From assembly GCA_002708765.1 (NCBI GenBank), contig PAPD01000043.1:1-64000 (forward strand): a stretch of 64,000 nucleotides of DNA. The letters are read 5' to 3'. A model generated the notes under the pieces. The model was not told the origin of the DNA. It did not search any database and saw nothing but the letters and a program-made list of their open reading frames with translations. The DNA is from Gammaproteobacteria bacterium (GTDB taxonomy: Bacteria; Pseudomonadota; Gammaproteobacteria; Pseudomonadales; Azotimanducaceae). A program made the translations under genes and the position numbers. Below are positions 1-62,847 of the stretch, one piece after another (the stretch's first letter is position 1; the number at the start of each line of letters is the position of its first letter).

Positions 1-1134
1 AGAACCTTCACAAGTTTTAACTGTCCAAAAGAAGCCGATCGATTGCGTGTCGGTTTTGTATCGGGGGATTTGCGGAATCATCCGGTAGGTTACTGGACGG
101 AAGGCTTTCTAGCTGAAATCGACAATTCGAAGATAGAATTGATCGCATATCCCACTTTACCAAATGAGGACGAATTAACCCGACGCTTACGGTCTTTTTT
201 TTCGAAATGGCAACCTGTTTATGGTCAGGATGATGAAGCGGTGGCAAAGATGATTCATGATGACCATATCCATGTGTTGTTCGATATGTCAGGGCATACT
301 CAATATAATCGGTTGCCGGTATTTGCGTGGAAGCCGGCACCTGTTCAGGTAAGTTGGTTAGGATATTTTGCAACGACAGGATTAAATGAAATGGACTATA
401 TCCTGGGGGACCCTTACGTAACACCGAAATCCGAGGAAGGTCACTTCGTTGAGAATATCTGGCCAATGCCAGAAAGTTATGTCTGTTTTACACCGCCGGA
501 TGTTGATATTGAAGTTAATGAGTTGCCAGCTATTTCTTCGGAATCGATTACTTTTGGTTGTTTTAACAATCTTATCAAGATTAATGACGAAGTTGTTTCA
601 GTTTGGTCTCGGATATTAAAGGCATTGCCGGGGTCTCGGATGTTTCTCAAGACGAAGACGTTAAACTCTGAAGAGGAGTGTAGAAAGATAAAGGAGCGTT
701 TTTTGAATCACGGTGTTGAGTCTGGCCGTTTGATTCTGGAAGGAGAGTCTCCTAGATCCGGGTTGCTGGCTGCGTATCAGCGAGTTGATATAGCACTTGA
801 TCCATTTCCTTACCCTGGCGGGACAACGAGTGCGGAATCAGTATGGATGGGAGTGCCTGTGGTGACATTAAGGGGTAAAAATTTTCTATCGCATGTTGGC
901 GAATCAATTATTACAAATGCAGGGCTGCCCGACTGGGTAGCTATTGATGAGGAAGATTACGTGCGCAAGGCGATAGATTTTGCTTCTGATCTGGATGCTT
1001 TGTCTTCCCTTCGGTCCGGACTTCGAGCGAAGCTCCTAACTTCACCTTTGTACGATACAAAACGATTTGCCAGATATTTTGAGACCGCAGTACGGGATAT
1101 GTGGAAGAAATGGTTAGAGAAACAAAATGGTTGA
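1..1134 (+). CDS. O-GlcNAc transferase-like glycosyltransferase (Glyco_transf_41), 5'-truncated by window edge
   Basis: The reading frame is open from base 1, so the gene begins before the window; an internal TTG at 43 is unlikely to be the true start. The visible ~377 residues match the catalytic region of SPINDLY/OGT-type enzymes, which move a sugar (usually GlcNAc from UDP-GlcNAc) to Ser/Thr of proteins. Seen: GFVSGDLRNHPVGY near the start, a PAPVQVSWLGYFATTG segment, the DPFPYPGGTTSAES loop and GVPVVTLRGKNFLSHVGES, all typical of this family's donor-binding half. In relatives the missing N-terminus is a TPR array; here it cannot be seen. It lies 63 bases before a TPR-oxygenase gene on the same strand, suggesting one locus for protein modification. 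The protein substrate is unknown. Confidence 0.85.
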   Translation, partial: RTFTSFNCPKEADRLRVGFVSGDLRNHPVGYWTEGFLAEIDNSKIELIAYPTLPNEDELTRRLRSFFSKWQPVYGQDDEAVAKMIHDDHIHVLFDMSGHTQYNRLPVFAWKPAPVQVSWLGYFATTGLNEMDYILGDPYVTPKSEEGHFVENIWPMPESYVCFTPPDVDIEVNELPAISSESITFGCFNNLIKINDEVVSVWSRILKALPGSRMFLKTKTLNSEEECRKIKERFLNHGVESGRLILEGESPRSGLLAAYQRVDIALDPFPYPGGTTSAESVWMGVPVVTLRGKNFLSHVGESIITNAGLPDWVAIDEEDYVRKAIDFASDLDALSSLRSGLRAKLLTSPLYDTKRFARYFETAVRDMWKKWLEKQNG

Positions 1135-1197
1135 TAGTAAGTTTTGCTTTAAGATTAATTTCGACGACAGTTACCATAAAAGTTAAGTGGTTCATAT

Positions 1198-3387
1198 ATG
1201 GAAGTGACTCTAGGTGAAGCTTTTGGAAAGGCTATAGAAGCTCACAGATTGGGTAATATTCAAGAGGCCGAAAAATTTTACAGATCGGTCCTTGAGATTC
1301 AGCCTAGACATGCTGACGCGAACCATAATATGGGAGTTATAGCTATATCGTTAGGTAAAGCCGAAGAGGCCATTCCCTTTTTTAAGACAGCGATAGAAGC
1401 AAATTCGAAGGTTGTACAGTTCTGGGTTAGTTATATAAATACCTTTATTGGTTTGGGGAATTTAGAAGAAGCTAGAAAAATATACGACGAAGCGACGAAA
1501 AAAGGAATCAAGGGAGATGTCTTTGAAAAAATAGCAGTACGTATAAATTATTTAAAGACGGATTTGGATGGGGAAAAACAACAAGTCCATTTTCAGCATA
1601 AGATCCAAGAATTAGCTAATTTATATAACCAGGGAAATTTAGCAGACGTTCTTCAAAAAGGAGAGTCTCTAGCAATACAGTTTCCTGATGAATTTGTTCT
1701 ATTTAACTTGTTGGGAGTTTCGAGCGCTGGTCTAGGAAAATACCAGGCTTCTGTTAGATTTTTGAACAAGGCAATTGAACTTAACCCGAACTATGGGGAT
1801 GGTTACAACAATCTGGGGATTACCTTAACTCAGAGTGGAGATTTTGATGGGGCTGTAGAAAGTTTTAAACAAGCGATCCGACTTAAGTCGGATGATGCCA
1901 AAGTTCATTATAATCTCGGATATGCATTTTCCAAAGGCCGGGACCTAGGTAGTGCTTTGGATAGTTTCCGGCAGGCCTTAAGGGTAAATCCTGATTATGC
2001 TGAAGCACTTAACAGCATGGGTTCTATTCTAAAGGAACAGGGGCATATTGAGGAAGCTGCTGAAAATTATCAGAAGGCTTTAAGAGTAAAACCTAATTAT
2101 GCTGAGGCACATAATAATCTGGGCCTTCTTTTAAAGGATAGAGGAGACCTTGACGGCGCTCTAGTAAGTTTTGAGAAAGCCCTTGAAATCAATCCTGATT
2201 CTTCAGAGTTTTTTTTCAATATTGGAATCGTCTTGGAGTTGCAAGGTGATCTCGAAGCGGCAATAGAAAGTTTTAAACGAGCAATCAGGCTGAGGCCTGA
2301 ATATGCGGAAGCCTATCTCAATCTAGGCTCTGCTTTTCTGGCAAATAAAGACAACGATGATGCGATAGATAGCTTCAATCAGGCTATAAGAATAAATCCT
2401 GACTTTGCCGAGGCCCATGTCAATTTAGCTACCGTGTTAGTAGCAAATAAGGATTATAGTGGAGCTATAGAGGTTTGCGAAAAAGCTCTTAGGCTCAACC
2501 CTGAAATTGGAGAAACACATCATCTTATGGGAAAGGCATTCTTTGACCTAGGTGATTATGAGGCGGCCAAGAATTATTTTGAATCGAGTGCAGATGCTTC
2601 TTTTACGCCGCAGTTCTCTATAGCTCGAGCAGCAGAATGCCTTTTTCATTCGGGAAAGTACACTGACCTAAATACTTATATCGCTAAAATAGCTAATAAA
2701 GACAAATGTAACATAAGGCTTTCTTCATTAAGTGTTTTTGTAGCACAACAATTGGGGGAAAAAAATCTTTACCCATTTTGTCCAAAACCAATGGATTTAG
2801 TCTCAATCACTAATTTACTAGATGATGGTTTGTGTGAAGATGATTTTCTAAAAGAAGTGCTGCACGAAGCCGAAACTAGGAGAAGCATTTGGGAACCGAT
2901 AAATAAAAGCACCAAATCCGGTTTCCAGACATTAGGCAATCTGTTTGATTCTCCCAGTAAAATAATCACGGAATTTAAGGCTCTTATTGATAAAGAAATT
3001 GATACCTATTATGCGAAATTTAGAGACAACGATTGCGCGTTTATTTCGGAATGGCCAGAAAAAAATCAACTTCAAGGCTGGTTCGTCAAGCTTATCCAGT
3101 CAGGTTATCAGGATTATCATATCCATCCGACCGGATGGCTAAGTGGTGTGGTATATTTAAAAACGATTGAATCTTCAGACAAAGAAGAGGGAGCGATAGA
3201 GTTTGGTCTGCATGGTTACGATTATCCGATTATTAACGATAATTTCCCTCGATTTTTACATCGTCCTCAAGAAGGTGATATTGCGCTATTTCCTTCATCT
3301 CTTTTTCATAGGACTTTCCCGATTACTAGGGACGCAGAGCGTTGTGTAATTGCTTTTGATCTAGTGCCAGAGTTCCCCACAAATTAA
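1198..3387 (+). CDS. TPR-repeat protein with C-terminal 2OG-Fe(II) oxygenase domain
   Basis: A 729-residue protein. Residues ~8-110 and ~160-470 are tandem 34-residue TPR units with the usual W/L-G-A/Y-P pattern (many end in N-P-x-Y/F-A-E-A), a protein-binding scaffold. The last ~120 residues resemble the putative 2OG-Fe(II) oxygenase family (PF13759 type): an HIH iron-binding pair near residue 641, GWLSGVVYL, then LFPSSLFH with the third ligand His near 704, and a downstream Arg (ERCVIAFD) suited to 2-oxoglutarate binding. It would hydroxylate a protein or small substrate that the TPRs recruit; the substrate is unknown. It follows the OGT-like gene and is a paralogue of the protein encoded at 3956-5845. 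There is no signal peptide, so it is probably cytoplasmic. Confidence 0.82.
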   Translation: MEVTLGEAFGKAIEAHRLGNIQEAEKFYRSVLEIQPRHADANHNMGVIAISLGKAEEAIPFFKTAIEANSKVVQFWVSYINTFIGLGNLEEARKIYDEATKKGIKGDVFEKIAVRINYLKTDLDGEKQQVHFQHKIQELANLYNQGNLADVLQKGESLAIQFPDEFVLFNLLGVSSAGLGKYQASVRFLNKAIELNPNYGDGYNNLGITLTQSGDFDGAVESFKQAIRLKSDDAKVHYNLGYAFSKGRDLGSALDSFRQALRVNPDYAEALNSMGSILKEQGHIEEAAENYQKALRVKPNYAEAHNNLGLLLKDRGDLDGALVSFEKALEINPDSSEFFFNIGIVLELQGDLEAAIESFKRAIRLRPEYAEAYLNLGSAFLANKDNDDAIDSFNQAIRINPDFAEAHVNLATVLVANKDYSGAIEVCEKALRLNPEIGETHHLMGKAFFDLGDYEAAKNYFESSADASFTPQFSIARAAECLFHSGKYTDLNTYIAKIANKDKCNIRLSSLSVFVAQQLGEKNLYPFCPKPMDLVSITNLLDDGLCEDDFLKEVLHEAETRRSIWEPINKSTKSGFQTLGNLFDSPSKIITEFKALIDKEIDTYYAKFRDNDCAFISEWPEKNQLQGWFVKLIQSGYQDYHIHPTGWLSGVVYLKTIESSDKEEGAIEFGLHGYDYPIINDNFPRFLHRPQEGDIALFPSSLFHRTFPITRDAERCVIAFDLVPEFPTN

Positions 3388-3560
3388 CCAGAGAGTTGCT
3401 ATAGGTAAACTATTTTAGAAGTGGACGACTTTTGGGTCGGTGGCTGGTCGATAGGGGTTCCCTCCGTTTTTTTGATTGATGAGATTACGAAAGATGACTA
3501 ACCCTTTTATGGGCGGGGAGTGAGTGAACGAAGAGCGGATGATGGGTGTTTAAGCAAAAA

Positions 3561-3581
3561 GGTTGCACCAGGGTTGCACCA
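3561..3581. repeat. Short tandem repeat (ggttgcacca x2)
   Basis: The 10-mer ggttgcacca occurs at 3561-3570 and 3572-3581, an 11-base period. It sits in the 259-base gap between the first TPR-oxygenase gene and tRNA-Arg, which otherwise shows no gene. Its function is unknown; it could be a remnant of an integration or regulatory site. Confidence 0.5.
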
Positions 3582-3646
3582 GCAGAAAATACGAAATTTT
3601 TTTCTTCTTCTGCGGTAAGATAAAATGAATTTAAACAATGAGTTAG

Positions 3647-3723
3647 TGGCGCCCTGAGCAGGAGTCGAACCTGCGACCCCCCGCTTAGGAGGCGGATGCT
3701 CTATCCAACTGAGCTACCAGGGC
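3647..3723 (-). tRNA. tRNA-Arg (anticodon CCT)
   Basis: The reverse complement folds as a complete cloverleaf: acceptor GCCCTGG pairs with TCAGGGC, D-arm GCTC/GAGC, anticodon stem TCCGC/GCGGG with loop CTCCTAA (U33, anticodon CCT, reading AGG), T-arm GCAGG/CCTGC with TTCGACT, discriminator G73 and an encoded CCA. It lies between two convergent TPR-oxygenase genes. A degenerate second copy is at 5903-5975. Confidence 0.97.
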
Positions 3724-3731
3724 GTCAATTT

Positions 3732-3759
3732 ATTCTAACAGACTTTTATGTAATTCAAG
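3732..3759 (-). promoter_or_regulatory. Candidate promoter of tRNA-Arg
   Basis: Read on the minus strand: a -35-like CTTGAA, a 16-base spacer and a -10 TAGAAT that ends about 8 bases before the mature tRNA 5' end. The placement suits a very short leader. An alternative -35 register is TTGAAT with a 15-base spacer. Confidence 0.45.
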
Positions 3760-3760
3760 T

Positions 3761-3783
3761 GAAACACTTTGGCCAAGTGTTTC
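3761..3783. repeat. Inverted repeat upstream of the tRNA-Arg promoter
   Basis: The arms gaaacactt and aagtgtttc are perfect reverse complements (9 bp) around a 5-base centre. It lies just upstream of the candidate -35 of tRNA-Arg and 172 bases after the end of the minus-strand TPR-oxygenase gene. No T-run follows on either strand, so it is not a standard intrinsic terminator; it could be an operator or a weak terminator for the gene at 3956-5845. Confidence 0.5.
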
Positions 3784-3955
3784 CGAGACTCCTCTGTAAT
3801 TGGCTAGGATTAAACACGCTTTATCTCTCTTCCAGGGTGCAGAGGAGCATATGACCTTTAGAAAGATTATTTCTCTGGTGGTTTGGTTGACAACATCAGG
3901 GGATTAGGTGTCGACATGTTTTTCCTAAGAACTTTTGAGAGGTTTAGTTTCTCTG

Positions 3956-5845
3956 TTAATTCGGAATAATATCGAACGCTAGAACAATTCTTTCTTCAGG
4001 AGAGTTGAATGGTATAGTGCAGTGGTGAAGTGACGCTGGGAAAAGGCATAATGTTCCAGTTTGTACCTCAATTATTTTACCGTTGGTTAGATTTCCTCTT
4101 TGTTCGTATTCCTTGTCATCCAGGCTAACAAAAAGGTTGCCGTCATTTGGTCCCGTCGATTTTGGAACGTTGATGTAAATGCTCCCGCTCAGCCAACCGG
4201 TTTCATGGATATGAGGGCTTACCGATCCACCATTTTTATATCGTACCAGCCAGCCTGAAATATTGTACTCGTCAGGCCAATTCAGGATAAGTCCTTCATT
4301 TCTCGATTCAAACTTCCGTCGATACTTATCAATTTCTAGTCGGATAGCGTTGCTTGCTTGATCTGAAAAATAAGATCCCCCAGTTAGGATATTACCGGAC
4401 GTCTGTTCTGCGTTGTTCAACAGGCTTTGATATCTAATAGAGACTTTTCTGTTCTCTAGAATAGATAGCGCTGGTTTCCGAAATAAGTTTTCGAAATCAT
4501 AATTTCTACTTAATGTGGTCTTTACTACGTAATTAAGAGGTTCATTGCAAAATGGATTTTTGGTATGTAATCCATATCTGATTTTTGCTCTGGAACAAAA
4601 AGATCCAATCAATGCGTTTTTTTTTCCAGAACCTATTAGGTCATTTAACTCGCTTAGAAAACGTTCTCTCTTATCTAATGCAAATAGGCTCTGTAAAAGA
4701 AAGCTCTTTGTTTTGTCTATAGTTAAGGGGTCTTGGTCTTTCTTTGCCATCACTTTGTCGAAAAATAAAATTGATTCGCTGTGTTTGTCGATACTTTGGA
4801 GGGCGAGCCCCATATTGACGAGCGCTTGAGAATATTCTGGGTTTAGTTTGATTGCTTTTTGGTAGCAATCTATTGCAGAGGATATTTCTCCTCTTTCCTG
4901 ATAAACGCCTCCCAAATTGTTATGAGGCTCCGGAAGGTCATTCCTGATTCTAATTGCTTCTAAATAGTTTTTGATAGCGGCTTCTGAATCTCCTTTTATT
5001 TTATTGGCTCTTCCCAGGTTGTTAAAAGCCTCAGCGTACTCAGGGTTTATTTCGATCGCTTTTCTAAAGGCTTGTATTGCCGGACCGATCCTGCCGAATT
5101 CCTGCAGAGCGCATCCTAAGTTATTGTAGAGACTTGAAGAAAGCGGATTAAAGTCGATAGCCTTTTTATAGCTTTCTATCGCTAGATCGAATTTCCGGCT
5201 TTGCTGATATATATTTCCAAGATTATTGTATCCGTCCGAAAAGTCCGGTTTTAAGGAAAGGGCTTTCTGAATATTTTCTATGGCACTTTCTGGCCTGTTT
5301 AATTGAGCGTTAACCACACCCATAATATTATACAGGTCAAAGGAGCCATTATTCTCAGGGAGTATTCTCTCTGCTTCCTGTAGGCTTTGTTCGAGCTTTC
5401 CTTCGTTATAGAGTTTTATCACATGTTCTATGGCAGGTTCTAGTCTGCTGGCTGGTGCGAGCTCTTTTTTTGACTCGCTTAGCTGAAGTATTCTGGTGTT
5501 TAATTCTATATAGCGTGGCTCGTCCAATCCATTGTTTCTTGCTTCTTGGAGTGCGTTTTTTGCTTCATCAGGATTTTTAAGTTCGATGAGAATTAGGATA
5601 TAACTTATCCAATACTGATCGATATTAGGTTTTGTCTCGATTGCCTTTTTAAAGAATAGCATTGCTTCTTTTGCGCGGCCGGCAGTCGTCGCCAGAATTC
5701 CCATATTATGGTTTGCTTCTGGATGGTCTGGAGCTGCCTTTAGAACAGCCGAGTAATAGATATCAGCTTTTCTCAAATCCCCTGCTTTATGGGCGTTGAT
5801 TCCTTTTCGGAGAGATTTCTCTAATTTCACGTGCAGATCACCCAC
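3956..5845 (-). CDS. TPR-repeat protein with C-terminal 2OG-Fe(II) oxygenase domain (paralogue)
   Basis: A 629-residue paralogue of the protein at 1198-3387, on the opposite strand. TPR units cover residues ~8-110 and ~135-370 (YNNLG, YNNLGC, FNNLGR and HNNLGG starts are easy to see). The C-terminal ~120 residues carry HIHETGWLSGSIYI with the HIH pair near residue 546, then LFPASLHH and RIVLAFD, the same oxygenase signature. The start MGDLHVKLEKSL is similar to the paralogue's MEVTLGEAFGKA, which supports both starts. The gene sits between tRNA-Arg and its decayed copy, so it may have been gained or lost as a unit with that duplication. Substrate unknown. Confidence 0.82.
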   Translation of the reverse strand: MGDLHVKLEKSLRKGINAHKAGDLRKADIYYSAVLKAAPDHPEANHNMGILATTAGRAKEAMLFFKKAIETKPNIDQYWISYILILIELKNPDEAKNALQEARNNGLDEPRYIELNTRILQLSESKKELAPASRLEPAIEHVIKLYNEGKLEQSLQEAERILPENNGSFDLYNIMGVVNAQLNRPESAIENIQKALSLKPDFSDGYNNLGNIYQQSRKFDLAIESYKKAIDFNPLSSSLYNNLGCALQEFGRIGPAIQAFRKAIEINPEYAEAFNNLGRANKIKGDSEAAIKNYLEAIRIRNDLPEPHNNLGGVYQERGEISSAIDCYQKAIKLNPEYSQALVNMGLALQSIDKHSESILFFDKVMAKKDQDPLTIDKTKSFLLQSLFALDKRERFLSELNDLIGSGKKNALIGSFCSRAKIRYGLHTKNPFCNEPLNYVVKTTLSRNYDFENLFRKPALSILENRKVSIRYQSLLNNAEQTSGNILTGGSYFSDQASNAIRLEIDKYRRKFESRNEGLILNWPDEYNISGWLVRYKNGGSVSPHIHETGWLSGSIYINVPKSTGPNDGNLFVSLDDKEYEQRGNLTNGKIIEVQTGTLCLFPASLHHCTIPFNSPEERIVLAFDIIPN

Positions 5846-5902
5846 TAAACAAGAAATGAAATGTTTTGCTTTTCAGACAATTTAAATAATAATGATGCCT
5901 AG

Positions 5903-5975
5903 AACCCTGAGCAGGAACCGCATTTGTCGCACCCGCTAAGTTGGCGGATGCTCTATGCAGCTGAGCTACCAGGGT
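5903..5975 (-). pseudogene. Degenerate tRNA-Arg copy
   Basis: The reverse complement keeps the tRNA-Arg 5' half nearly intact: acceptor ACCCTGG, D-arm, and anticodon stem TCCGC/GCGGG. The anticodon loop has become CAACTTA (no U33), the variable and T arms no longer fold (GCGACAAATGCGG in place of the TTCG loop region), and CCA is missing. The bases on its 5' side also resemble those beside the intact tRNA. I read it as a decayed duplicate, not a working tRNA. Confidence 0.8.
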
Positions 5976-6002
5976 GTCTTAATTATCTTAGCAGAAATTT
6001 GT

Positions 6003-6608
6003 ATGTATCATGAATCAGATATTATCCAGATATTTGCAAAAACCCCTATTCCTGGGAGAGTTAAAACGCGCTTGATTCCGTTGCTCGGGGATAAGGGAGC
6101 TTGTGATTTTCATAAACGAATGATCACAAAGCTTGTCAATAATCTCTCTGAATCCTATTCAAAAATTGAGATATGGACTGACTTCGATACAGGAGATCAT
6201 TTTCTAAATGGTTTTGGCTTTCCTGTGGTTGAACAAATAGGAAAAGATCTAGGGGAAAAGATGATAAATGCACTTAATCTAGGTCTGGTTTCCAATGAGA
6301 AGGTTGCTTTGATTGGAACAGATTTGCCCCAAATGAGCAGTGCTTATGTTCGTTTGGCTTTTAAACAGCTCGATAAATATCCGGTTGTTTTAGGCCCCAC
6401 TTATGATGGAGGTTTTGGGTTAATTTCTGTTCGTCACTTATCACCCTCGATTTTTGAAGAAGTATTATGGGGAAGAGAAGATGTTTTAGAGAAAATCTTA
6501 CGAAATATTGCGAGCATAGGTTCGAACTATTTTCTTTTGTCAAGAATCCTAGATGTTGACACTCCCGAAGACTATCGAAGGTATCAGTTATTTCTAAATG
6601 ATGTCTAA
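6003..6608 (+). CDS. TIGR04282/DUF2064 family glycosyltransferase-like protein
   Basis: About 201 residues beginning MYHESDIIQIFAKTP. I chose this ATG because the longer frame to 5955 would run through the tRNA remnant and adds no conserved sequence. The opening IQIFAKTPIPGRVKTRL is typical of the DUF2064 / rSAM-selenodomain-associated transferase 1 family, with a GT-A-like nucleotide-sugar fold; GTDLPQM (the DxD-like region) and GPTYDGGFGLI are the other family landmarks. Relatives are often near sugar or glycan genes, and here the next gene is an SDR epimerase-like protein on the opposite strand whose 3' end overlaps by 15 bases. No specific substrate is known. Confidence 0.8.
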   Translation: MYHESDIIQIFAKTPIPGRVKTRLIPLLGDKGACDFHKRMITKLVNNLSESYSKIEIWTDFDTGDHFLNGFGFPVVEQIGKDLGEKMINALNLGLVSNEKVALIGTDLPQMSSAYVRLAFKQLDKYPVVLGPTYDGGFGLISVRHLSPSIFEEVLWGREDVLEKILRNIASIGSNYFLLSRILDVDTPEDYRRYQLFLNDV

Positions 6609-7595
6609 GTCTATTAAACTGTTTACGGAGTCTATGACAGTGTTCTTTATTTCTTTTGGGTTCCAATCAAGCCGCAAAGATTCGGTATTGTCTATTTTTT
6701 TTTCTTTGCCGAGATCTTTTGTTATTTGTCGTAGTTCTGTGATAAAAAGACTCAAAATCCAGGTGCCAATATCGGGCATTAGTTTTGTCGGGATGTTTCT
6801 TTCTGGAAAGGTTTCGTCGATAATTTCTGCAATTTCTTGAAACCACATAAAACGATTCGAAGCGATTAGCCTTTTGTTTACAGATTGTGTATTTTCAAGA
6901 GCTATTCTATGCAAAGCCGCAACATCTCTTACGTCTACAATCTCGAAACCAAAACGAGGGATCAGGAGGATTTCTTTTTTAAGGATTTTAACCAGCGCCT
7001 CCAGACTTGAACCATAGTCTTTCCCTAGCGCGGGACCTAGGACCAGGGATGGGTGAATTGTAGTCAGATCAATTTTGTTTTCTCTTGAAAAACTCCAAGC
7101 AGACTTTTCTGCTAATGTCTTGCTTAGGGTATAAGGTGTGAGGTCTTTTTCTTCCGGGTTTGTCCAGTCAGACGAGTTATAAATCTTTCGTTTTCCGCCT
7201 TTTCCAAATATGGTGGCGACCGATGATGTTAGTATGACTCTTTTTATGCCGCGAATTACAGCAGCTTCAAGCACATTCAAGGTTCCTTGTCTTGCAACTT
7301 CAATTATCTCAGAGCTGTCTTTGGGTTGAGCAATTGGAACAGGAGAGGCAACGTGAAAAACGGCATCACAACCTTCCATGGAGGCATAGATTTCATCAGG
7401 CTGTCGAAGGTCGGCATGTTTGTATTTTATCCTTCTATTATCGAACCCATATTTTGAAATATTAGTTCTAAGGATTTTTTCTCTAGAAGGGTTTCTCAAG
7501 GTCCCCACGACATCGTAGTCATTTGCGAGAAGATCGAGAACGCAGTGCTCACCAATAAAACCTGATGCTCCGGTTAGAAGGATTTGTCCTTTCAT
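6594..7595 (-). CDS. NAD(P)-dependent epimerase/dehydratase, dihydroflavonol reductase-like
   Basis: 333 residues of the extended short-chain dehydrogenase family. Seen: the N-terminal Rossmann motif LLTGASGFIGEHC (residues ~6-18), VFHVASP in the position of the conserved cofactor-contact strand, a TSSVATIFG segment, and the catalytic YTLSK (YxxxK) around residue 155. The overall look (GTLRNPSR, DLRQPDE, VRDVAALH) is closest to dihydroflavonol-4-reductase-like proteins, which reduce ketones or aldehydes; bacterial members rarely have known substrates. It converges with the DUF2064 gene. No operon partner is seen on its strand. Confidence 0.85.
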   Translation of the reverse strand: MKGQILLTGASGFIGEHCVLDLLANDYDVVGTLRNPSREKILRTNISKYGFDNRRIKYKHADLRQPDEIYASMEGCDAVFHVASPVPIAQPKDSSEIIEVARQGTLNVLEAAVIRGIKRVILTSSVATIFGKGGKRKIYNSSDWTNPEEKDLTPYTLSKTLAEKSAWSFSRENKIDLTTIHPSLVLGPALGKDYGSSLEALVKILKKEILLIPRFGFEIVDVRDVAALHRIALENTQSVNKRLIASNRFMWFQEIAEIIDETFPERNIPTKLMPDIGTWILSLFITELRQITKDLGKEKKIDNTESLRLDWNPKEIKNTVIDSVNSLIDLDII

Positions 7596-7727
7596 TCAGA
7601 ATTTCTCTAGCTTTCCACCAGTACAATCTTATAGAGGTTCGAGGGCTTTGAAATGAATTATTCTCAAAAATGGTAGCTATTTTATACCTATTCTTGAAAT
7701 AATGTTCTTTTCTCAGGTATCAACGCC

Positions 7728-9098
7728 ATGGCGGAGACCTTTTCTGGAGTAATGGCTTTTTCTTTCATGGCCTTGATGATATGGATTGGAGCCATATTAA
7801 GGAAGAATGTTTCTTTTCTTCAGGAGAGTCTGCTTCGAGCAAGTATTATTGGTGGAATAATTGGGTTTTTTCTGATCAGTCTCGATTTCTCTTTTTCTCA
7901 AACCGGCGAGAATTTTGTTGGATTTGCTTTCCATTTTTTCACTCTGAGTTTCATGTCTCTTGCCCTTACAGGAAGTCGTCAAAAAGAAGCTCATAATAAT
8001 AATGGAACAAGAAAGGGAACAGGAGCGCTTTGGCTTTCGGTTGGGTGGACGGTTAGTCTTGCCATGCAAGGTTTGGTGGGACTGCTTTGTGTATCTCTTT
8101 ACAATTTTTTTGCCCAACAGACTTTATCTCCGAGCTTGGGAGTTCTGGTTACTCATGGTTTTACTCAAGGCCCCGGTCAGGCAATTGCTATGGCATCCAT
8201 TTGGGAGAGTCAGTTCTACATCAATAACGCGATCAGTTTCGGGTTGGTTTATGCATCTATCGGATTTATTGTAGCGTTTATTGTAGGTATTCCAGTTGCC
8301 AAATGGGCTCTTCGCAAAGGAATCAACGAGAATAAGAATGCGAGGTTAAGCAAAAACTTCTTAACAGGGTTTTATGAGAGAGATAATCGCCCGATTTCAG
8401 GATTTCAGATTACTCATTCCTCCAACGTAGATAACCTAGTATATCATCTAGGTTTGTTAGGGTTTGCCTACTTAGCAACCAATATGATGCTCGTGCAAGT
8501 ACAGGAAGCAGTGGCTGGATATATATTGCTCGGTTTGCCGGTAGAGGTACTTTTTTCTCACAACCTATTTTTTGTTCACGGGTTAATTGTCTGTTTGCTT
8601 ATACGAACTCTAATTAACTATTTTAAGCTTGATTATCTTGTCGACGAAGATACCCAGAAACATATTACTAGCTCTTCGGTAGATCTTATGATTGTAGCTA
8701 CTCTGATGAGCATCCAGATCACTTTTTTATGGAATTTCATGTTACCAATTATGCTGATATGTAGCTCGGTTGTGGTGGCGACCGCGATTTTGTGTTTTGG
8801 TTTTGGTAGAATGCTTCCTCGTCTGGGAATTGAGCGCTCGATAGCTTTATTTGGATGTTGCACGGGTTCGACTGGAAGCGGATTGTTGCTTTTGCGTGTC
8901 GTTGATCCGGATTTGTCGACCTCCGTATCCAGAGAGCTAGCCTATTTTAATGTCCTTATCATATTTTTAAGTATTCATATTTTGATGTTTGTCGCCCCTC
9001 TAACTCCCTCGTTAGAACTGATCAAGCTAGTTGCAATATATGGCCTTACTGTTGTTTTTGGGGGTGCACTCTTCTGGCGCCTCTCCTCACACACGTGA
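7728..9098 (+). CDS. GltS-like sodium/glutamate symporter family protein
   Basis: 456 residues with about 10-12 hydrophobic spans, so an inner-membrane carrier. Two half-repeats show the GltS family signature: THGFTQGPGQAIAM in the first half and FGCCTGSTGSGLLLLRVVDP in the second, equivalent to the GltS re-entrant loops that form the substrate/Na+ site. GltS takes up glutamate with sodium; this protein is longer than the usual ~400 residues and diverged, so the substrate is uncertain. It begins 132 bases after a divergent SDR gene and its 3' end overlaps the convergent coaE gene by 12 bases. Confidence 0.72.
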   Translation: MAETFSGVMAFSFMALMIWIGAILRKNVSFLQESLLRASIIGGIIGFFLISLDFSFSQTGENFVGFAFHFFTLSFMSLALTGSRQKEAHNNNGTRKGTGALWLSVGWTVSLAMQGLVGLLCVSLYNFFAQQTLSPSLGVLVTHGFTQGPGQAIAMASIWESQFYINNAISFGLVYASIGFIVAFIVGIPVAKWALRKGINENKNARLSKNFLTGFYERDNRPISGFQITHSSNVDNLVYHLGLLGFAYLATNMMLVQVQEAVAGYILLGLPVEVLFSHNLFFVHGLIVCLLIRTLINYFKLDYLVDEDTQKHITSSSVDLMIVATLMSIQITFLWNFMLPIMLICSSVVVATAILCFGFGRMLPRLGIERSIALFGCCTGSTGSGLLLLRVVDPDLSTSVSRELAYFNVLIIFLSIHILMFVAPLTPSLELIKLVAIYGLTVVFGGALFWRLSSHT

Positions 9099-9680
9099 CT
9101 TCCATATAGCCAGAATTTTTTTTGAAAACGATTGGGGTGAGCCATTATTCTTTATTACAACATCTGCTTTGTTTGCTCTGACTCTGTTCGACAATTGTGC
9201 ACTTAGTCTGGATTTAGCCTGGTCGCCAGTAATTCCATTTCGGTTCATTATCCTTTCAATAGCGATTTCCGGATCGACTTCGATCACCCAGGTTTCATCA
9301 CCCATTGTTTCCCAGCCTGCCTCGAATAATACCGCCGCTTCAAGGATAATTATCTGATCTTGGTCAATAGATCTTATTTCTTTTATTTTTTTTTCGGCCA
9401 AAGTCCTAATGTTTGGCCATACGATATCGGTTAGTCGTTTTAAGGCGTGCCTGTCTCCAAAGACTATTTCGCCCAGTTTCTTTCGATTTATCTCTCCGTC
9501 AGCCGCACAGATTTCTTTTCCAAAGACTCTGATTAATGCTGAGTGGGCAGTTCTTCCTTTTTCGTAGGTTTGGTGTCCAAGTTTATCAGCGTCGATAATC
9601 TTTGCTCCCAGCTTTTTGAAAATCGACGATGCAGTGGATTTTCCGCTTGCAATTCCGCCAGTAAGACAAATGGTTTTCAA
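9087..9680 (-). CDS. coaE: Dephospho-CoA kinase
   Basis: Catalyses the last step of coenzyme A synthesis, ATP-dependent phosphorylation of dephospho-CoA. The 197-residue length is normal. Seen: P-loop LTGGIASGKST (residues ~6-16), IIDADKLGH with the catalytic Asp region, ILEAAVLFEAGW, and a C-terminal VIKNNGS segment, as in known CoaE. In Pseudomonas coaE follows pilD; here it stands alone between a GltS-like gene (convergent overlap) and a thiolase module (divergent). Confidence 0.95.
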   Translation of the reverse strand: MKTICLTGGIASGKSTASSIFKKLGAKIIDADKLGHQTYEKGRTAHSALIRVFGKEICAADGEINRKKLGEIVFGDRHALKRLTDIVWPNIRTLAEKKIKEIRSIDQDQIIILEAAVLFEAGWETMGDETWVIEVDPEIAIERIMNRNGITGDQAKSRLSAQLSNRVRANKADVVIKNNGSPQSFSKKILAIWKSRV

Positions 9681-9844
9681 CTCAGGTTTCCAAGAAAAGA
9701 ACTTGATCGGAATCTGCCATACCAGATTTTAAATTACTACTCTTTTGTTAGAAGAAAGATAAACCTGTTGACGAAATTATCTATAATCTCTGTTATCGTT
9801 TCTCCTTAAAGGCGTTATATTTGTTGGTTTGTGAGTCAGGGATT

Positions 9845-11038
9845 ATGAATCAGAAAAAAGAGGCAGCGATTGTAGGGGTGTATGAATACCCTTTAAGAAA
9901 AGTTGGTGGGAAACTTAGTCCATTGCAAATAAAGGCAGCATGCGCTGTGGAAGCACTTAAGGATGCAGGCTTAGCTTGGTCCGATGTTGATGGGATTTAC
10001 GATGCTGGCGAGAGTGGTCCGATGAGCGGCTTGACAATATCAGAATATTTTTCTGTTAATCCGTCTGTTATAAATACTACGAATGTTGGAGGGAGTTCAT
10101 ATGAGTTTCATTCTGCTCAGGCAAGACGGGATATTATGGCTGGGAAGGGTAATGTAGCGCTCTTGACTTACGGTTCAACAGCGCATAGCAGCGCTTTTTC
10201 TATAGGAACAGGTTCTCGGGGAGGTAATGCGCTTGATCCCGTTAGTAATATCGAATCTTTTTCTGGAATGACTTTGGTCTCCAATTATGCAATGGTCGCG
10301 AATAGGCATATGTATGATTATGGAACCAAAAGAGAAGCGATGGCAGAAATCTCGGTGGTTACTCGATATCATGCAATGAGAAATCCTCAGGCAGTCCAGG
10401 CCATGAAAGATCTGGAATTTCTCGATATCAGAGAAACGACTATTGATGATGTGCTGAATTCAAGACTTATCGCTGATCCGTTGCGTTTGCTGGAATGTTG
10501 CATGATCTCTGATGGTGGCGGAGCCGTAGTGATCGCTTCGCCAGAGGTGGCGAGAGATTGCAGAAAGAAACCGATATGGATTCTAGGGTCTGGAGAAGCG
10601 ACCAGGTACCCAGTTCGTGATACTGATATTACTTGCACCGCAGCTGTCCAAACCGGACCAGAGGCATTTGATGAGGCCGGCATCTCCCCTGAAGAGATAG
10701 ATGTCGCAATGATTTACGATTCTTTCAGCATTACCGTGCTAACTATCCTGGAAGATTTAGGTTTTTGCAAAAAAGGAGAAGGGGGCGACTGGGTCGCAGG
10801 AGGGCGACTGAGATACGAAAAAGTATCAGATGGCCCAGCATTAAACACTGATGGCGGTGGCCTGTCATCTAATCACCCCGGAATGAGAGGGATATTTCTC
10901 TTGATCGAGTCCGTGAGACAGTTGCGGGGCGAGTCAACATCTCAAGTTAAAGAAGCAAAATTGGCTGTTGCTCATGGTAATGGAGGAATGTTAGGAAGTC
11001 GTCATTCTGCGGGCACAATTATTATGGGTGTTGATTAA
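9845..11038 (+). CDS. Thiolase-like protein of the lipid-transfer/Ltp2 type, lacking the nucleophilic Cys
   Basis: 397 residues from ATG 9845 (weak agggat upstream); a TTG at 9821 is possible but less likely. The fold is thiolase-like (AAIVGVYEYPL start, SDGGGAVVI, GGGLSSNHPGMRG, HGNGGMLGSRHSAGTI end). The stretch that normally holds the nucleophilic Cys reads TTNVGGSSYEF, with no Cys, and the C-terminal CxG motif reads HGNGG. Such proteins include SCP-x-like and Ltp2 enzymes; Ltp2 is a retro-aldolase in steroid side-chain removal that works with a DUF35 partner. The next gene, one base on, is a DUF35 protein, and two hotdog-fold genes follow, so I infer a retro-aldolase or related acyl-CoA lyase. 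True substrate unknown. Confidence 0.8.
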   Translation: MNQKKEAAIVGVYEYPLRKVGGKLSPLQIKAACAVEALKDAGLAWSDVDGIYDAGESGPMSGLTISEYFSVNPSVINTTNVGGSSYEFHSAQARRDIMAGKGNVALLTYGSTAHSSAFSIGTGSRGGNALDPVSNIESFSGMTLVSNYAMVANRHMYDYGTKREAMAEISVVTRYHAMRNPQAVQAMKDLEFLDIRETTIDDVLNSRLIADPLRLLECCMISDGGGAVVIASPEVARDCRKKPIWILGSGEATRYPVRDTDITCTAAVQTGPEAFDEAGISPEEIDVAMIYDSFSITVLTILEDLGFCKKGEGGDWVAGGRLRYEKVSDGPALNTDGGGLSSNHPGMRGIFLLIESVRQLRGESTSQVKEAKLAVAHGNGGMLGSRHSAGTIIMGVD

Positions 11039-14197: not shown

Positions 14198-17100
14198 ATG
14201 CGTTTGCAAGCAATAAAGCTAGCTGGTTTTAAATCCTTTGTAGAGCCAACTACCATTAATTTTCCGTCTAGCCTTTGCGCTGTGGTAGGACCGAATGGGT
14301 GTGGAAAATCAAACATTATTGATGCAGTCCGCTGGGTTATGGGCGAATCTTCTGCCAAGACTTTGCGCGGTGAGTCGATGTCCGACGTCATTTTTAATGG
14401 ATCGAATAAAAGAGCACCATTGGGCCAAGCTAGTATTGAACTGCTATTTGATAATTCGTTAGGCCGTTTACAAGGAGAATTGTCTGCTTTCACCGAGATC
14501 TCGGTAAAGAGGTTAGTAACTAGGGACGGGCAGTCAGCTTATTTCCTCAATAAAAATCGATGTCGGAGAAAAGACATTATGGACTTATTTCTAGGTACGG
14601 GTTTAGGTCCTAGAAGTTACTCCATAATAGAACAAGGAATGATCAGCCAGCTAATAGATTCCAAACCAGAGGAACTGCGAAGTTACTTGGAGGAAGCAGC
14701 GGGAATATCCAAGTACAAGGAACGAAGGAAAGAAACGGAAAGAAAAATAATTCATACCAGAGAAAATCTGGATAGATTAAATGATATAAGAGAAGAATTG
14801 GCGAATCAGTTAATTCGTCTAGAGCGTCAATCCAAGGCAGCGGAGAAATACAATGAACTTAGAAAGCAAATACGTAGTACTCGAGGTTTGTTGTTGGGTT
14901 TTCGTTGGCAAAAACTCGCTCAGGAGATAGTGGAGAGAGAGAAAGAAATAGATCAAATCCAGATTGATAGGGACAGATATGTGTCAGAGCAAAGAAGACT
15001 TGATTCCGACATAGAAGTTTGCAGGACCGACTTAGTCCGATTAACCAATGATTTGAGCGATCGCCAGAAAGTTTTTTATGACCAGGGAACTGAAATTGCA
15101 CGTATCGAAGAGGGCATTCAATTTTATAGTGAAAGAAATCGTCAGCATTCGGCAGACCTAGCGGAAGTAGATGATACCTTAAAACAGTTGGAGAAAAATC
15201 TTGGAACAGATGAAGAAAAATTGCAAGAACTGGAGTTGGACTTGTCTGAGAGTAACCCAAGAAGCATGGAAAACAAGTTGCTTGAAGAAAAATCAAGTAG
15301 GCATCTTGGTCAATTGGAAGAAAAGCGCCACCAGTTCCAATATGACTGGAATGAATTCGTCGAGAAATCGTCTGAGCTTCTTAGAAAAGAGGAAGTTCAT
15401 CGAACAAAAATAATTAGTCTAGAGGAGGCTATAAAAAGGTCCAGAGATAGGGTTGATTCTTTGAAGAAACAGATCGATAGTTTGGTCCAACATCCTCATG
15501 AGGAAGAACTAATACCCCTAAAACGTGAAGTTGAATCGCAAGAGCTAGAAGTTAATAATATTTTGGAGAAATCAACATATCTCACTCAAGCTTTAATTAG
15601 ATATAGAAAAACTAGCGAAACAATTTCGCACGCTATGGATGAAAAGAAAGATCAGTTGCAGCGGCTTTCAGGAAGAAGCTCGTCGCTTGAAGCACTTCAG
15701 CATCAGGCGTTAGGCGAGGAAGATGATCTAGAGGTCCAGTGGCTAAAAACAAAAAGCATGGAAAAACATCAGCGACTAGGCGCAGAGATTCTGGTGGACG
15801 ATGGTTGGGACCTGGCCGTAGAGATGGTGTTAGGAGATTTTGTTCAGGCGTTGTGTGTGGACGAGATCGAGTCTCCAGAGGTTTTTTTTAGATCGTTTTC
15901 AAAGGGTCGTTTGGCATTTATGTTTCCCTCAAAAAACAATCAAATCATAGTCGACGATGATTTTTTGAGTTCTAAAGTCCGAGGAAATTCATCAGTCCAT
16001 GCCTTACTGCGAGGTATAAGGGTGGCACCAGATTTATCGAAAGCTTTGATTATTAGAGGTAGTCTGAAGGAGGAAGAAACGGTAATAACCAGAGATGGTT
16101 TTTGGCTAGGCTCTAATTGGATCAGAATAGCAAAGGATAAAAAGACCTCTGGTACTGTTATTCAACGTCAAAAAGAATTGGTTTCGATTAAGGCAGATAT
16201 TGAAAGATTAGAGGCGGAGATAAAATCATTTGAAGGAGTTTTCGAAGAAGCTAGAGAGAAGATTCGGGGGGCAGAAGATGATAGAGAAACTCTTAATAAG
16301 GAATTAAAAAATAAGCAGACAGCTCTGGGCATTTCCAGAGAGAAACTAGGAGAGAAAACATTTCAGGTTCGTCAGATCCAGAGCGACTTGGTTAAGCTCT
16401 CTGATGAGATGCAGGGTCTTAATGTTAGAATAAAACAAGATGAGATTAATCTTGAGACCGAAAAAAGGATGCTCACTGAGGTTGAGAAGCTGTCTGAGGC
16501 AGATAACAACCAGAGAGAGGAACTTCTAGAAGTTCGAAAAGATCTAGAGCTGGAACTAAAACAAACTAGAGAGAAGGCAGAAAATGAGAGGGCCTCTGTG
16601 CATCAGTATGAATTGATGATTCAGTCAATTGAATCACAGATTGAATCAACTAGAGATGCGGTAAAAAGATTAAGGAACCAATATCAGGAACTTTCTACGA
16701 GAAGAAGATCGCTTCTAGAAAATATTAGAGCTTCCGAAGAGCCTATTAACGATTTGAGCATTAAGCTAAAAGAAGAAATATCAAAAAAAGCGACCTCGGA
16801 GACTTCTTTAGCAACGGCAAGATCCGCGATACAGGATAAAGAATTAAGAACGCGAGATCTTGAGAGTCAACGCCGTCAGTGTGAAGCCGAATTGGAAAAG
16901 TCTCGTGGAAATATGGAGGAGGTTCGATTGCAACGTCAAACCGTTGAGGTAAGGCAGTCTGCTTTAAAGGAGCAATTAGAGGAAAATGGTAATACGTTGG
17001 AAGAGGTTTTAAGAAATCTTGATTTGCAGAATAAAGAAGGTTACGACTCGGTTTCATATGAAGATCAATTGGAAAAGCTTATTAAGCGTTTGGATCGTCT

Positions 17101-17713
17101 TGGCCCTATCAATCTGGCTGCATTGGATGAGCATGAAGTTCAATCAGAAAGAAAGCAGTATCTGGATTCTCAGAACGAAGATTTGGAAAATGCCCTTTCG
17201 ACATTGGAGAGCGCTATTAAGAGGATAGATACTGAAACCAAGGAGAGATTTAAAGAAACATTCGATAAAGTAAATGACAAGTTGCATGTTTTGTTTCCAA
17301 AATTATTTGGTGGCGGTCGAGCCTATCTAGAGATGACGAGTGATGATTTGTTGGATTCCGGAGTAGGAATTATGGCTCGACCACCAGGGAAAAGAAATGT
17401 GAATGTCCATCAACTTTCAGGAGGAGAAAAAGCTCTCGCGGCGATTGCCTTAGTTTTTTCCATATTTGACTTGAACCCATCACCATTCTGTTTGCTGGAC
17501 GAAGTGGATGCTCCTTTAGATGATGTTAATGTTGCGCGTTACGTGGATCTGGTAAAAGAAATGTCGAAAACAGTTCAGTTTGTTTTTATTACACATAATA
17601 AAATAGCGATGGAGATGGGTGACCATCTTATGGGCGTCACGATGCAGGAGTCCGGGGTTTCAAGATTAGTATCAGTAGATGTTAATGAAGCGGTTGCAAT
17701 GGTAGCGAGTTGA
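14198..17713 (+). CDS. smc: Chromosome partition protein SMC
   Basis: 1171 residues, normal for SMC, the ATPase that with ScpA/ScpB (46158-47654) compacts and segregates the chromosome. The N-terminal head has LAGFKSFVEPTT and the Walker A loop GPNGCGKSN (residues ~32-40). Two long coiled coils (~170-500 and ~660-1000) flank the hinge around residues 510-640 (LGDFVQALCVD, SSVHALLRGI). The C-terminal head has the signature LSGGEKALAAIAL and Walker B FCLLDEVDAPLDD. It heads an smc-zipA-ligA run as in Pseudomonas. Confidence 0.97.
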   Translation: MRLQAIKLAGFKSFVEPTTINFPSSLCAVVGPNGCGKSNIIDAVRWVMGESSAKTLRGESMSDVIFNGSNKRAPLGQASIELLFDNSLGRLQGELSAFTEISVKRLVTRDGQSAYFLNKNRCRRKDIMDLFLGTGLGPRSYSIIEQGMISQLIDSKPEELRSYLEEAAGISKYKERRKETERKIIHTRENLDRLNDIREELANQLIRLERQSKAAEKYNELRKQIRSTRGLLLGFRWQKLAQEIVEREKEIDQIQIDRDRYVSEQRRLDSDIEVCRTDLVRLTNDLSDRQKVFYDQGTEIARIEEGIQFYSERNRQHSADLAEVDDTLKQLEKNLGTDEEKLQELELDLSESNPRSMENKLLEEKSSRHLGQLEEKRHQFQYDWNEFVEKSSELLRKEEVHRTKIISLEEAIKRSRDRVDSLKKQIDSLVQHPHEEELIPLKREVESQELEVNNILEKSTYLTQALIRYRKTSETISHAMDEKKDQLQRLSGRSSSLEALQHQALGEEDDLEVQWLKTKSMEKHQRLGAEILVDDGWDLAVEMVLGDFVQALCVDEIESPEVFFRSFSKGRLAFMFPSKNNQIIVDDDFLSSKVRGNSSVHALLRGIRVAPDLSKALIIRGSLKEEETVITRDGFWLGSNWIRIAKDKKTSGTVIQRQKELVSIKADIERLEAEIKSFEGVFEEAREKIRGAEDDRETLNKELKNKQTALGISREKLGEKTFQVRQIQSDLVKLSDEMQGLNVRIKQDEINLETEKRMLTEVEKLSEADNNQREELLEVRKDLELELKQTREKAENERASVHQYELMIQSIESQIESTRDAVKRLRNQYQELSTRRRSLLENIRASEEPINDLSIKLKEEISKKATSETSLATARSAIQDKELRTRDLESQRRQCEAELEKSRGNMEEVRLQRQTVEVRQSALKEQLEENGNTLEEVLRNLDLQNKEGYDSVSYEDQLEKLIKRLDRLGPINLAALDEHEVQSERKQYLDSQNEDLENALSTLESAIKRIDTETKERFKETFDKVNDKLHVLFPKLFGGGRAYLEMTSDDLLDSGVGIMARPPGKRNVNVHQLSGGEKALAAIALVFSIFDLNPSPFCLLDEVDAPLDDVNVARYVDLVKEMSKTVQFVFITHNKIAMEMGDHLMGVTMQESGVSRLVSVDVNEAVAMVAS

Positions 17714-18464: not shown

Positions 18465-21099
<2,635 letters not shown>

Positions 21100-60834: not shown

Positions 60835-62847
60835 ATGTCGAACAAAAAATTCAGAATTCGTTCCAACTATATGCCTTCCGGAGATCAGCCTTCAGCGATT
60901 ACCAGTCTCGTAGAAGGACTGGAATCGGGTTTAGCTTACCAAACTCTTCTGGGTGTTACCGGGTCGGGGAAAACATTTACCATCGCCAATGTCATAGAAA
61001 AAATCCAGAGACCGACTTTGGTTATGGCACCGAATAAGACTTTGGCGGCTCAATTGTATGGCGAATTCAAAGAATTTTTCCCCGAGAATGCCGTTGAATA
61101 TTTTGTTTCCTACTATGATTACTATCAACCTGAGGCTTATGTGCCCGCTTCCGATACTTATATCGAGAAAGATGCGAGTATTAATGAACACATTGAGCAA
61201 ATGAGATTGTCGGCTACTAAAGCTCTCCTTGAAAGAAAAGATACTATAGTTGTTGCTTCAGTTTCAGCGATCTATGGGCTTGGTGATCCTGAGACTTACT
61301 TTAAGATGGTCATGCATCTTGATCGTGGGGATAGAGTTGATCAGAGATGGATTCTTAGAAGATTAACCGACATGCAATATACAAGAAACGAGACAGAGCT
61401 CAGAAGGTCTTCGTATCGAGTTAGAGGAGATGTAATAGATATCTTTCCGGCTGAATCGGAAAAAGAAGCAATTAGAGTTGAGCTATTCGATGATGAGATC
61501 GAAGGACTGTCATTTTTTGATCCTCTTACAGGAGAAATTATACGGAAAGTTTCGCGAGTAACGGTATTTCCTAAGACCCATTATGTGACTCCGCAAGAGA
61601 CCTTGGATCATGCTGCTAGATTAATAGACGAGGAATTAGAAGACAGACTTAGGGAATTGAAAGAGTCTAATAAATTAGTTGAAGCTCAGCGTCTTGAGCA
61701 GCGTACTAAGTTTGATCTTGAGATGATGAAAGAACTGGGTTTTTGTAGTGGAATAGAAAACTATTCGCGATATCTTTCGGGAAGGGGCGTCGGTGAATCA
61801 CCACCTACTCTCTACGATTACTTGCCTAATAGTGCTCTTCTGGTTATCGATGAATCACATGTTGGAGTTCCTCAGCTGGGAGCCATGTATAAAGGCGATA
61901 GGTCTAGAAAAGAAACTCTGGTTAATTTCGGTTTTCGTTTGCCTTCGGCTTTAGATAACAGACCTTTGAGATTTGAAGAGTGGGAAGCGAAACCAGTGCA
62001 AGCAATTTTTGTTTCCGCTACCCCAGGACCTTACGAGATCAAAAAATCGGGACAAATTGCTGAGCAGTTGGTTCGACCCACTGGATTGGTGGACCCCGCG
62101 GTTGAAATAAGACCAGCAAGTAGTCAGGTTGACGACGTGTTGGAAGAGATAGGTAAAAAGGTCGCCTTGAATGAGAGGGTTCTTATCACGACTCTAACTA
62201 AGCGAATGGCAGAAAATTTGACTGATTATCTTGGTGATAACGGAGTTAGGGTTCGGTACCTTCATTCTGATATAGATACTGTGGAAAGAATAGAAATTAT
62301 TCGTGACCTTAGATTAGGGGAATTCGATGTTTTGGTGGGAATTAATCTTCTTAGAGAAGGTTTGGATATGCCGGAAGTTTCTTTAGTAGCTATTTTTGAT
62401 GCAGACAAAGAAGGCTTTCTGAGATCCGAAAGATCTTTGATTCAAACCATTGGGAGGGCTGCTCGAAATATAAACGGAAGTGCAATTTTGTATGCTGACA
62501 GGAAGACTGATTCTATGGAACGAGCTATTATTGAAACTGAGAGGCGAAGAGAAAAGCAGCTCAAATACAATGCTGAGCATAAAATTGTTCCTAAAGGAAT
62601 AGAAAGAGAAGTTAACGACGTGTTAGAGGGAGTTCATGTCGTGCGGATAAACGGGAAAGGAGTAAGCCAGAGGTCAGAGAGAAGAAAAAGCGTCAGCGAT
62701 AAACCCATGAATCGTGAGCAGCTTGAAAAAGATATTTCTTCTTTGGAACAGAAAATGTTCGAGCATGCGAAGGAGTTAAGGTTTGAAGAAGCAGCTAGTG
62801 CTCGAGATCAAGTAGAGGAGTTGCGGCAAGAATTTATGAGGCTTTAA
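60835..62847 (+). CDS. uvrB: UvrABC system protein B
   Basis: 670 residues. Helicase-like damage-verifying subunit of nucleotide excision repair. Seen: [13 protein letters not shown], Walker [11 protein letters not shown] (residues ~42-51), the beta-hairpin [34 protein letters not shown] (DEAD-like box), helicase motif [22 protein letters not shown] and QTIGRAARN, and a C-terminal UVR domain (~630-670, [21 protein letters not shown]). Full length. Confidence 0.98.

Follow-up and report, generated by a model that had tools for sequence, protein, structure and literature searches.

A SPINDLY-like TPR-glycosyltransferase and two TPR proteins with a predicted hydroxylase-type fold beside a candidate S-layer export locus in an Azotimanducaceae bacterium

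A putative S-layer modification locus

The beginning of a 64,000-nt stretch of DNA from a marine gammaproteobacterium of the family Azotimanducaceae (assembly GCA_002708765.1, contig PAPD01000043.1, positions 1 to 64,000; hereafter the window) encodes the C-terminal part of a glycosyltransferase of family GT41 and two tetratricopeptide repeat (TPR) proteins, A and B, each ending in a PF13759 domain, annotated as a 2-oxoglutarate (2OG)-Fe(II) oxygenase. The other half of the glycosyltransferase gene was found at the end of a second contig, behind the genes of a type II secretion system (T2SS) and a gene for a candidate surface-layer (S-layer) protein of the Slr4 type. Taken as a whole, the locus may serve a dedicated S-layer export system as its modification arm in the cytoplasm, a tentative reading to which a probability of roughly 0.45 is given.

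In the proposed mechanism, the T2SS operon and the Slr4-type protein would make and export the cell coat; the SPINDLY-like TPR-GT41 enzyme would bind the unexported Slr4 chain via its TPR groove and, in the manner of FlmG on flagellin, would glycosylate Ser/Thr residues of that chain ahead of Sec/T2SS export; A and B would attach to this client, or to a different exported protein, through an OGT-like TPR superhelix and hydroxylate it by their prolyl-hydroxylase-type heads. The action of GT41 on the S-layer protein is likely, while that of A and B on the same protein is a guess. The observations beneath this scheme are gene content, order and synteny, domain identity, the predicted fold and the recurrence of the A/B pair; the client, the reaction order, the sugar, the 2OG dependence, the hydroxylated residue and the oxygenase activity of the heads are what the scheme would add to them. 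The features are as follows.

1..1134, + strand: C-terminal part (377 aa) of the GT41 gene, Glyco_transf_41 PF13844, 175 bits (cut-off 25); 616 aa in total with the part on the second contig (C56)
1198..3387, + strand: TPR-2OG protein A, 729 aa, Pfam TPR array and C-terminal PF13759
3079..3360, + strand: PF13759 domain of A, residues 628-721, 69.0 bits (cut-off 27); H641, H643, H704, R715
3956..5845, - strand: TPR-2OG protein B, 629 aa, Pfam TPR array and C-terminal PF13759
3971..4252, - strand: PF13759 domain of B, residues 532-625, 72.2 bits (cut-off 27); H545, H547, H608, R619 (numbered from the alignment)
5955..6608, + strand: TIGR04282/DUF2064 glycosyltransferase-like gene, in divergent orientation to B and perhaps not part of the locus

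A preliminary description of the window had named a gene with an O-GlcNAc transferase (OGT)-type domain and two genes with TPRs and an oxygenase domain; profile searches against PF13844 and PF13759, the check it had suggested, bear this out, all three genes scoring over the cut-offs. Its "three genes in a row" are adjoining genes indeed, but not one operon: GT41 (incomplete in the window) and A share the + strand with a 63 bp gap, whereas B converges on A from the opposite strand with 568 bp between them. Inspection by eye shows no evident signal peptide in A or B; all three enzymes are therefore read as cytoplasmic. Promoter-like sites in positions 1-6700 numbered 16 (14.2 in shuffles) and terminator-like sites 3 (6.2 in shuffles). 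The housekeeping genes SMC, LigA and UvrB lie elsewhere in the window (14198-17713, 18471-20498 and 60835-62847).

The contig junction and the Slr4-type gene

The first base of the window is also the first base of its contig (C43) in a 2.65 Mb genome of 61 contigs (G000), and the GT41 gene is incomplete because it is cut by this edge. With the TPR-GT41 homologue of a congener as query, the missing N-terminal TPR half was found to close contig C56, whose final 119 bases are identical to the first 119 of C43; a genome-wide search places this stretch at those two contig ends only. The joined frame of 616 aa is free of stops and aligns over residues 5-609 with the intact homologue of the congener G012 (41% identity), and nearly as far with that of the congener G003.

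Upstream on C56, GspE, F, G, K and D were recognised over the cut-off in a Pfam scan covering all but four small open reading frames, together with GspM below the cut-off and one further frame with no Pfam match. The gsp genes are followed by the Slr4-type S-layer gene, then by a GT2 gene in opposite orientation, and lastly by the start of GT41. The Slr4-type gene matches PF19526 at 37 bits (cut-off 25) and has the gsp genes upstream; on this profile and gene context its product is a candidate S-layer protein and the likely client. Its N-terminus is signal-peptide-like by eye, and its composition (17.6% Thr and 8.8% Ser, 26% together, with 1.9% Pro) suits O-glycosylation and has no special fit to prolyl hydroxylation. 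It was because of the contig edge that this likely client and the T2SS operon were hidden from the preliminary description.

A comparable arrangement is reported in the passages on the Slr4 locus of Pseudoalteromonas tunicata in PMC7821379, where the Slr4-family gene likewise adjoins the T2SS, directly 3' of its operon; unlike that locus as published, GT41 and two TPR-2OG genes follow Slr4 here. The words glycosyl, TPR and tetratricopeptide are absent from the text of PMC7821379.

Conservation in the family

The nearest named genome among those matched is the OM182-clade single cell AG-414-A10 (CACFLG01). The order GspD, Slr4-type gene, TPR-GT41 is kept in the window's genome and in its congeners G012 and G003 (GspD only partly seen in G003); in the window's genome the GT2 gene lies between Slr4 and GT41. 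A PF19526 search of 58 relatives gave five matches, three of them over the cut-off (G000, G012 and G035), and missed the G003 protein, which has no PF19526 match and was assigned via its 80% identity to that of G012. Downstream of GT41, Pfam recognises an epimerase, a methyltransferase and an HMW1C-like gene in G012, and the G003 genes match these in size and order, with 96% identity for the epimerase. A second GT41 of 56% identity lies in G012 at the edge of another contig.

Of 206 genomes of the family, three have a full-length Slr4, with partial or weak matches in five more. A GT41 at 55% identity or above is confined to the same three (four more have weaker matches), and a B-type domain at 40% or above to these three and G015. 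The kept order in three congeners and the common phyletic pattern argue against a rival in which the S-layer/T2SS neighbourhood is incidental and the three enzymes have their clients elsewhere, for instance in flagellin or in proteins of the cytoplasm. FlmG, the characterised bacterial TPR-glycosyltransferase, does target flagellin according to the parts of PMC7591256 that deal with it; on balance this rival is improbable. A sample of 369 genomes of the class contained Slr4 in one genome, the window's own, and is thus uninformative on the Slr4-GT41 linkage.

The GT41 enzyme

Among solved structures, the best match of the enzyme is plant SPINDLY (SPY; 260 bits), with TtOGT at 248 and human OGT at about 147, so that the earlier name "OGT-like" is loose: by alignment score the enzyme is nearer to SPINDLY than to human OGT. 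It matches the PF13844 profile and has the catalytic lysine, K193 aligning with SPY K665; H27 and Y271 correspond to SPY H495 and Y744, and the equivalent of T748 is also present, while S496 is replaced by Pro in the alignment. SPINDLY is a plant nucleocytoplasmic O-fucosyltransferase in which K665, H495 and Y744 matter, and its Tyr, which XcOGT and TtOGT have too, reportedly clashes with GlcNAc (these points in the relevant sections of PMC9715652). The window enzyme is likewise a GT41 with TPRs and with equivalents of K665/H495/Y744/T748, unlike SPINDLY in being bacterial and in the Pro at S496. Its Tyr (Y271) occupies the site of Cys917 of human OGT and, since XcOGT and TtOGT have Tyr as well, does not settle the sugar donor.

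For an N-terminal TPR module common to GT41 and A/B, weak matches only were found. The cytoplasmic adhesin glycosyltransferases of the HMW1C type act before secretion and have a related GT41 fold, but are N-linked and match the window enzyme at about 37-40 bits only; an HMW1C-like gene stands in the G012 cluster, as mentioned. A functional parallel is offered by FlmG of Caulobacter, whose TPR domain binds flagellin and whose C-terminal glycosyltransferase (GT-B) domain O-glycosylates it in the cytoplasm, as described in parts of PMC7591256. The shared design is a TPR substrate-binding part, a C-terminal glycosyltransferase and cytoplasmic action on a protein exported later; unlike FlmG, which is likened here by description and not by sequence, the enzyme would have a T2SS S-layer protein as its likely client and adjoins a hydroxylase-fold pair.

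The PF13759 heads

The preliminary description had called the oxygenase ligands intact, and the order HIH...H...R is indeed present in both paralogues, with a sound predicted fold; the motif is not HxD...H, however, and ordinary 2OG-Fe(II) chemistry is not established by it. HxH...H...R is invariant in 44 of 44 aligned PF13759 sequences, and HxH was read in 51 of 51 loci with over-cut-off PF13759 matches, the window's own included (34 found by a first motif pattern, the other 17 read singly), as well as in the solved family members 2rg4 and 3bvc. The HxD/E...H facial triad of classical 2OG-Fe(II) oxygenases was found neither in A and B nor in the relatives read. To judge from the motif order, and from residues of PHD2 which are assumed here to place the second His of HxH at the Asp site, the Asp position of the usual triad would be His in A and B.

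The AlphaFold2 model of the B head, built with 44 sequences, is a confident double-stranded beta-helix barrel (predicted local distance difference test, pLDDT, 92.4; predicted template modelling score, pTM, 0.91), so that the structural check of the iron site suggested earlier came out in favour of the fold and left HxH...H in place of the classical ligands. The closest solved folds are those of the family itself, 3bvc (Z 16.7) and 2rg4 (Z 16.5), followed mostly by prolyl hydroxylases: PpP4H (Z 15.1), PHD2 (13.5-15.0), vCPH (14.7) and an algal P4H (13.7); OsALKBH1 (Z 13.9) and OGFOD1 (Z 13.6) are listed as well. The heads would thus have the same barrel as bacterial, viral and eukaryotic prolyl 4-hydroxylases (PpP4H, PHD2, vCPH; Z 13.5-15.1), unlike which they have HxH for HxD and are fused to a TPR superhelix. 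A prolyl-hydroxylase-type fold is predicted, and proline hydroxylation would follow from fold resemblance only. The model of full-length A (15 sequences; mean pLDDT 88.2, pTM 0.61) has OGT and the OGT TPR superhelix as its best fold matches.

It is possible, if unlikely, that the PF13759 heads lack 2OG oxygenase activity and are instead three-His metal proteins with other chemistry, or binding domains displayed by the TPRs. The unbroken HxH counts given above agree with this, and no functional study of a bacterial PF13759 protein was found in the open literature as judged by titles and abstract openings (PMC10598087 included). The closeness to prolyl hydroxylases, the confident barrel and the invariant distal Arg argue the other way; this Arg would by analogy, presumably, hold 2OG. 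A third over-cut-off PF13759 match in the same genome lies within a 193-aa frame on another contig (C60:18865-19176, L059).

The A/B pair and its neighbourhoods

The neighbourhoods were surveyed in 80 of 258 TPR-2OG loci, kept in a ranking by how closely they resemble B. A tree built from 84 C-terminal domains places A of the window, on a long branch, with two others only, of a Porticoccaceae genome (L156) and of MED-G09 (L157), with support of 100/99, and each of these lies at most about 2.1 kb from a B-clade gene; B groups with its OM182 orthologue and with the B-clade neighbour of the Porticoccaceae A-type gene (support 100/97). Each of the three A-type genes found is accompanied by one of B type, two of the pairs being convergent and one tandem, in a ranking by which lone A-type genes may be missed. 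The pairs span alpha- and gammaproteobacteria. A recent duplication was rejected, as the C-terminal domains share about 31-32% identity and fall in separate clades; A and B are, as far as the tree tells, an old pair in deeply separate clades. In the MED-G09 locus (3132-10585), a TPR protein, a 2OG-FeII_Oxy_3 protein and a TPR-methyltransferase stand in a row with the A/B pair after them.

Other candidate clients are found near TPR-2OG genes. In five of the 80 loci (L187, L196, L204, L213 and L225), all of one six-row Methylophaga-like clade, a pilin gene and a Wzy_C ligase gene adjoin the TPR-2OG gene (Pfam checked in three); the pilin is type IV, and Wzy_C is O-antigen ligase / pilin-glycosylation-like. 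G137 has a protein whose end looks PEP-CTERM-like by eye and which matches nothing in Pfam; near it are a PF13759 gene and genes for a TPR-sulfotransferase and a TPR-GT41. The common theme of these selected cases, which are not a count, is exported surface proteins. In Methylophilaceae (L202, L206, L207, L221, L232 and others), the TPR-2OG gene lies 3' of prolyl-iminopeptidase-like and YihY-like membrane genes, with a methanol-dehydrogenase-like gene close by (all by eye), and in OM182 MED-G28 (L166) a gene of a methanol-dehydrogenase-like cluster is about 7 kb away.

Association of GT41 with PF13759

The two families occur together in 22 of the 369 class genomes (PF13759 in 74, GT41 in 83) against 16.6 expected (Fisher p=0.068), or in 21 against 16.3 with the window's genome set aside (p=0.094), and this count does not support a partnership as a class-wide rule. 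GT41 and PF13759 lie within 5 kb in three outside genomes (G062, G137 and G382) against 0.25 expected from uniform positions in the genome (P ~0.002), and within 10 kb in three against 0.50 (P ~0.014). Scored were 37 2OG genes in 21 of the 22 genomes with both families, with G093 and all below-cut-off PF13759 matches left out, one of which, in G261, is within about 2 kb of a GT41; the GT41 genes of G127, G145 and G179 and one of G330, whose positions were not among the matches listed, were counted as not near. The 2OG genes of G062 and G137 have no TPR match. In the gammaproteobacterium G382 (L143:5976-9449), a single 1157-aa frame forms a natural TPR-2OG-TPR-GT41 fusion (second TPR stretch by eye), adjoined by two TPR-sulfotransferase genes and a TonB-dependent receptor gene, and on a Prochlorococcus contig a 541-aa protein of the TPR-2OG cluster stands in a row between a GT41 and a TPR-GT41. 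A GT41 was recognised in one of the 80 named TPR-2OG loci, the best 80 of 258, many of them cut short; that of G012 falls outside its stretch in this survey. The pairing recurs but is rare. The small modification locus proposed in the preliminary description, with a survey of neighbourhoods as its check, is hence upheld as a TPR-borne GT41 with hydroxylase-fold domains, adjoining in a few other places, and not as a general two-enzyme system.

Several points weigh against a single S-layer modification arm. Modification of Slr4 is inferred, and its chain has only 1.9% proline; with the HxH motif, 2OG chemistry of the heads is no more than putative. Weak B-like matches are frequent (a match of any kind in 55 of the 206 family genomes), nearly all without this GT41 or Slr4. 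In neither G012 nor G003 do A and B adjoin GT41. The B gene of G012, at the contig edge, is separated from GT41 by about 15 kb with a phage-integrase gene between; of the close B type, G003 has only a remnant of 40 aa (L276:11803-11922) on another contig, and its 42% relative likewise lies away from the GT41 contig. Lastly, the window's genome, G012 and G003 are congeners, not three independent events, and shared descent alone could give the pattern.

Accordingly, GT41 may serve the S-layer protein while A and B form an independent module for another exported protein (a pilin, a TonB receptor or a PEP-CTERM-like protein), their adjacency being due to chance or to a shared genomic island. This is a serious possibility, although the odds are against it. 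It agrees with the A/B pairs without a recognised GT41 in Porticoccaceae (on a 5.2-kb contig) and MED-G09 (16.7 kb), with the single GT41 among the 80 loci, and with the epimerase and methyltransferase-sized genes that come after GT41, in place of A/B, in G012 and G003; it is opposed by the three outside proximities within 5 kb, the natural fusion and the 63 bp gap on one strand between GT41 and A.

Significance

A more elaborate form of S-layer modification is very improbable: A and B would hydroxylate the S-layer chain in the cytoplasm, and GT41 would then glycosylate it ahead of T2SS export, perhaps at the hydroxyls just made. If true, this would be a bacterial counterpart to glycosylation primed by hydroxylation, its oxygenases having a three-histidine metal site. 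No study of a locus of this kind was found among the titles and partial texts returned by open-literature searches on PF13759, TPR/2OG with OGT, sulfotransferase or pilin, S-layer with OGT/GT41, three-His 2OG and S-layer or pilin hydroxylation. PMC7821379, in the passages concerned, describes Slr4 as a major component of the biofilm matrix in a marine bacterium; the same passages and word searches of that text gave nothing on how it is modified. The present locus suggests a link of TPR-guided cytoplasmic protein modification to S-layer export. Two enzyme groups of which little is known would thereby gain a concrete client that can be tested, and the question is raised whether an HxH...H site can support the chemistry for which PF13759 is annotated in Pfam, that of a 2OG-Fe(II) oxygenase.

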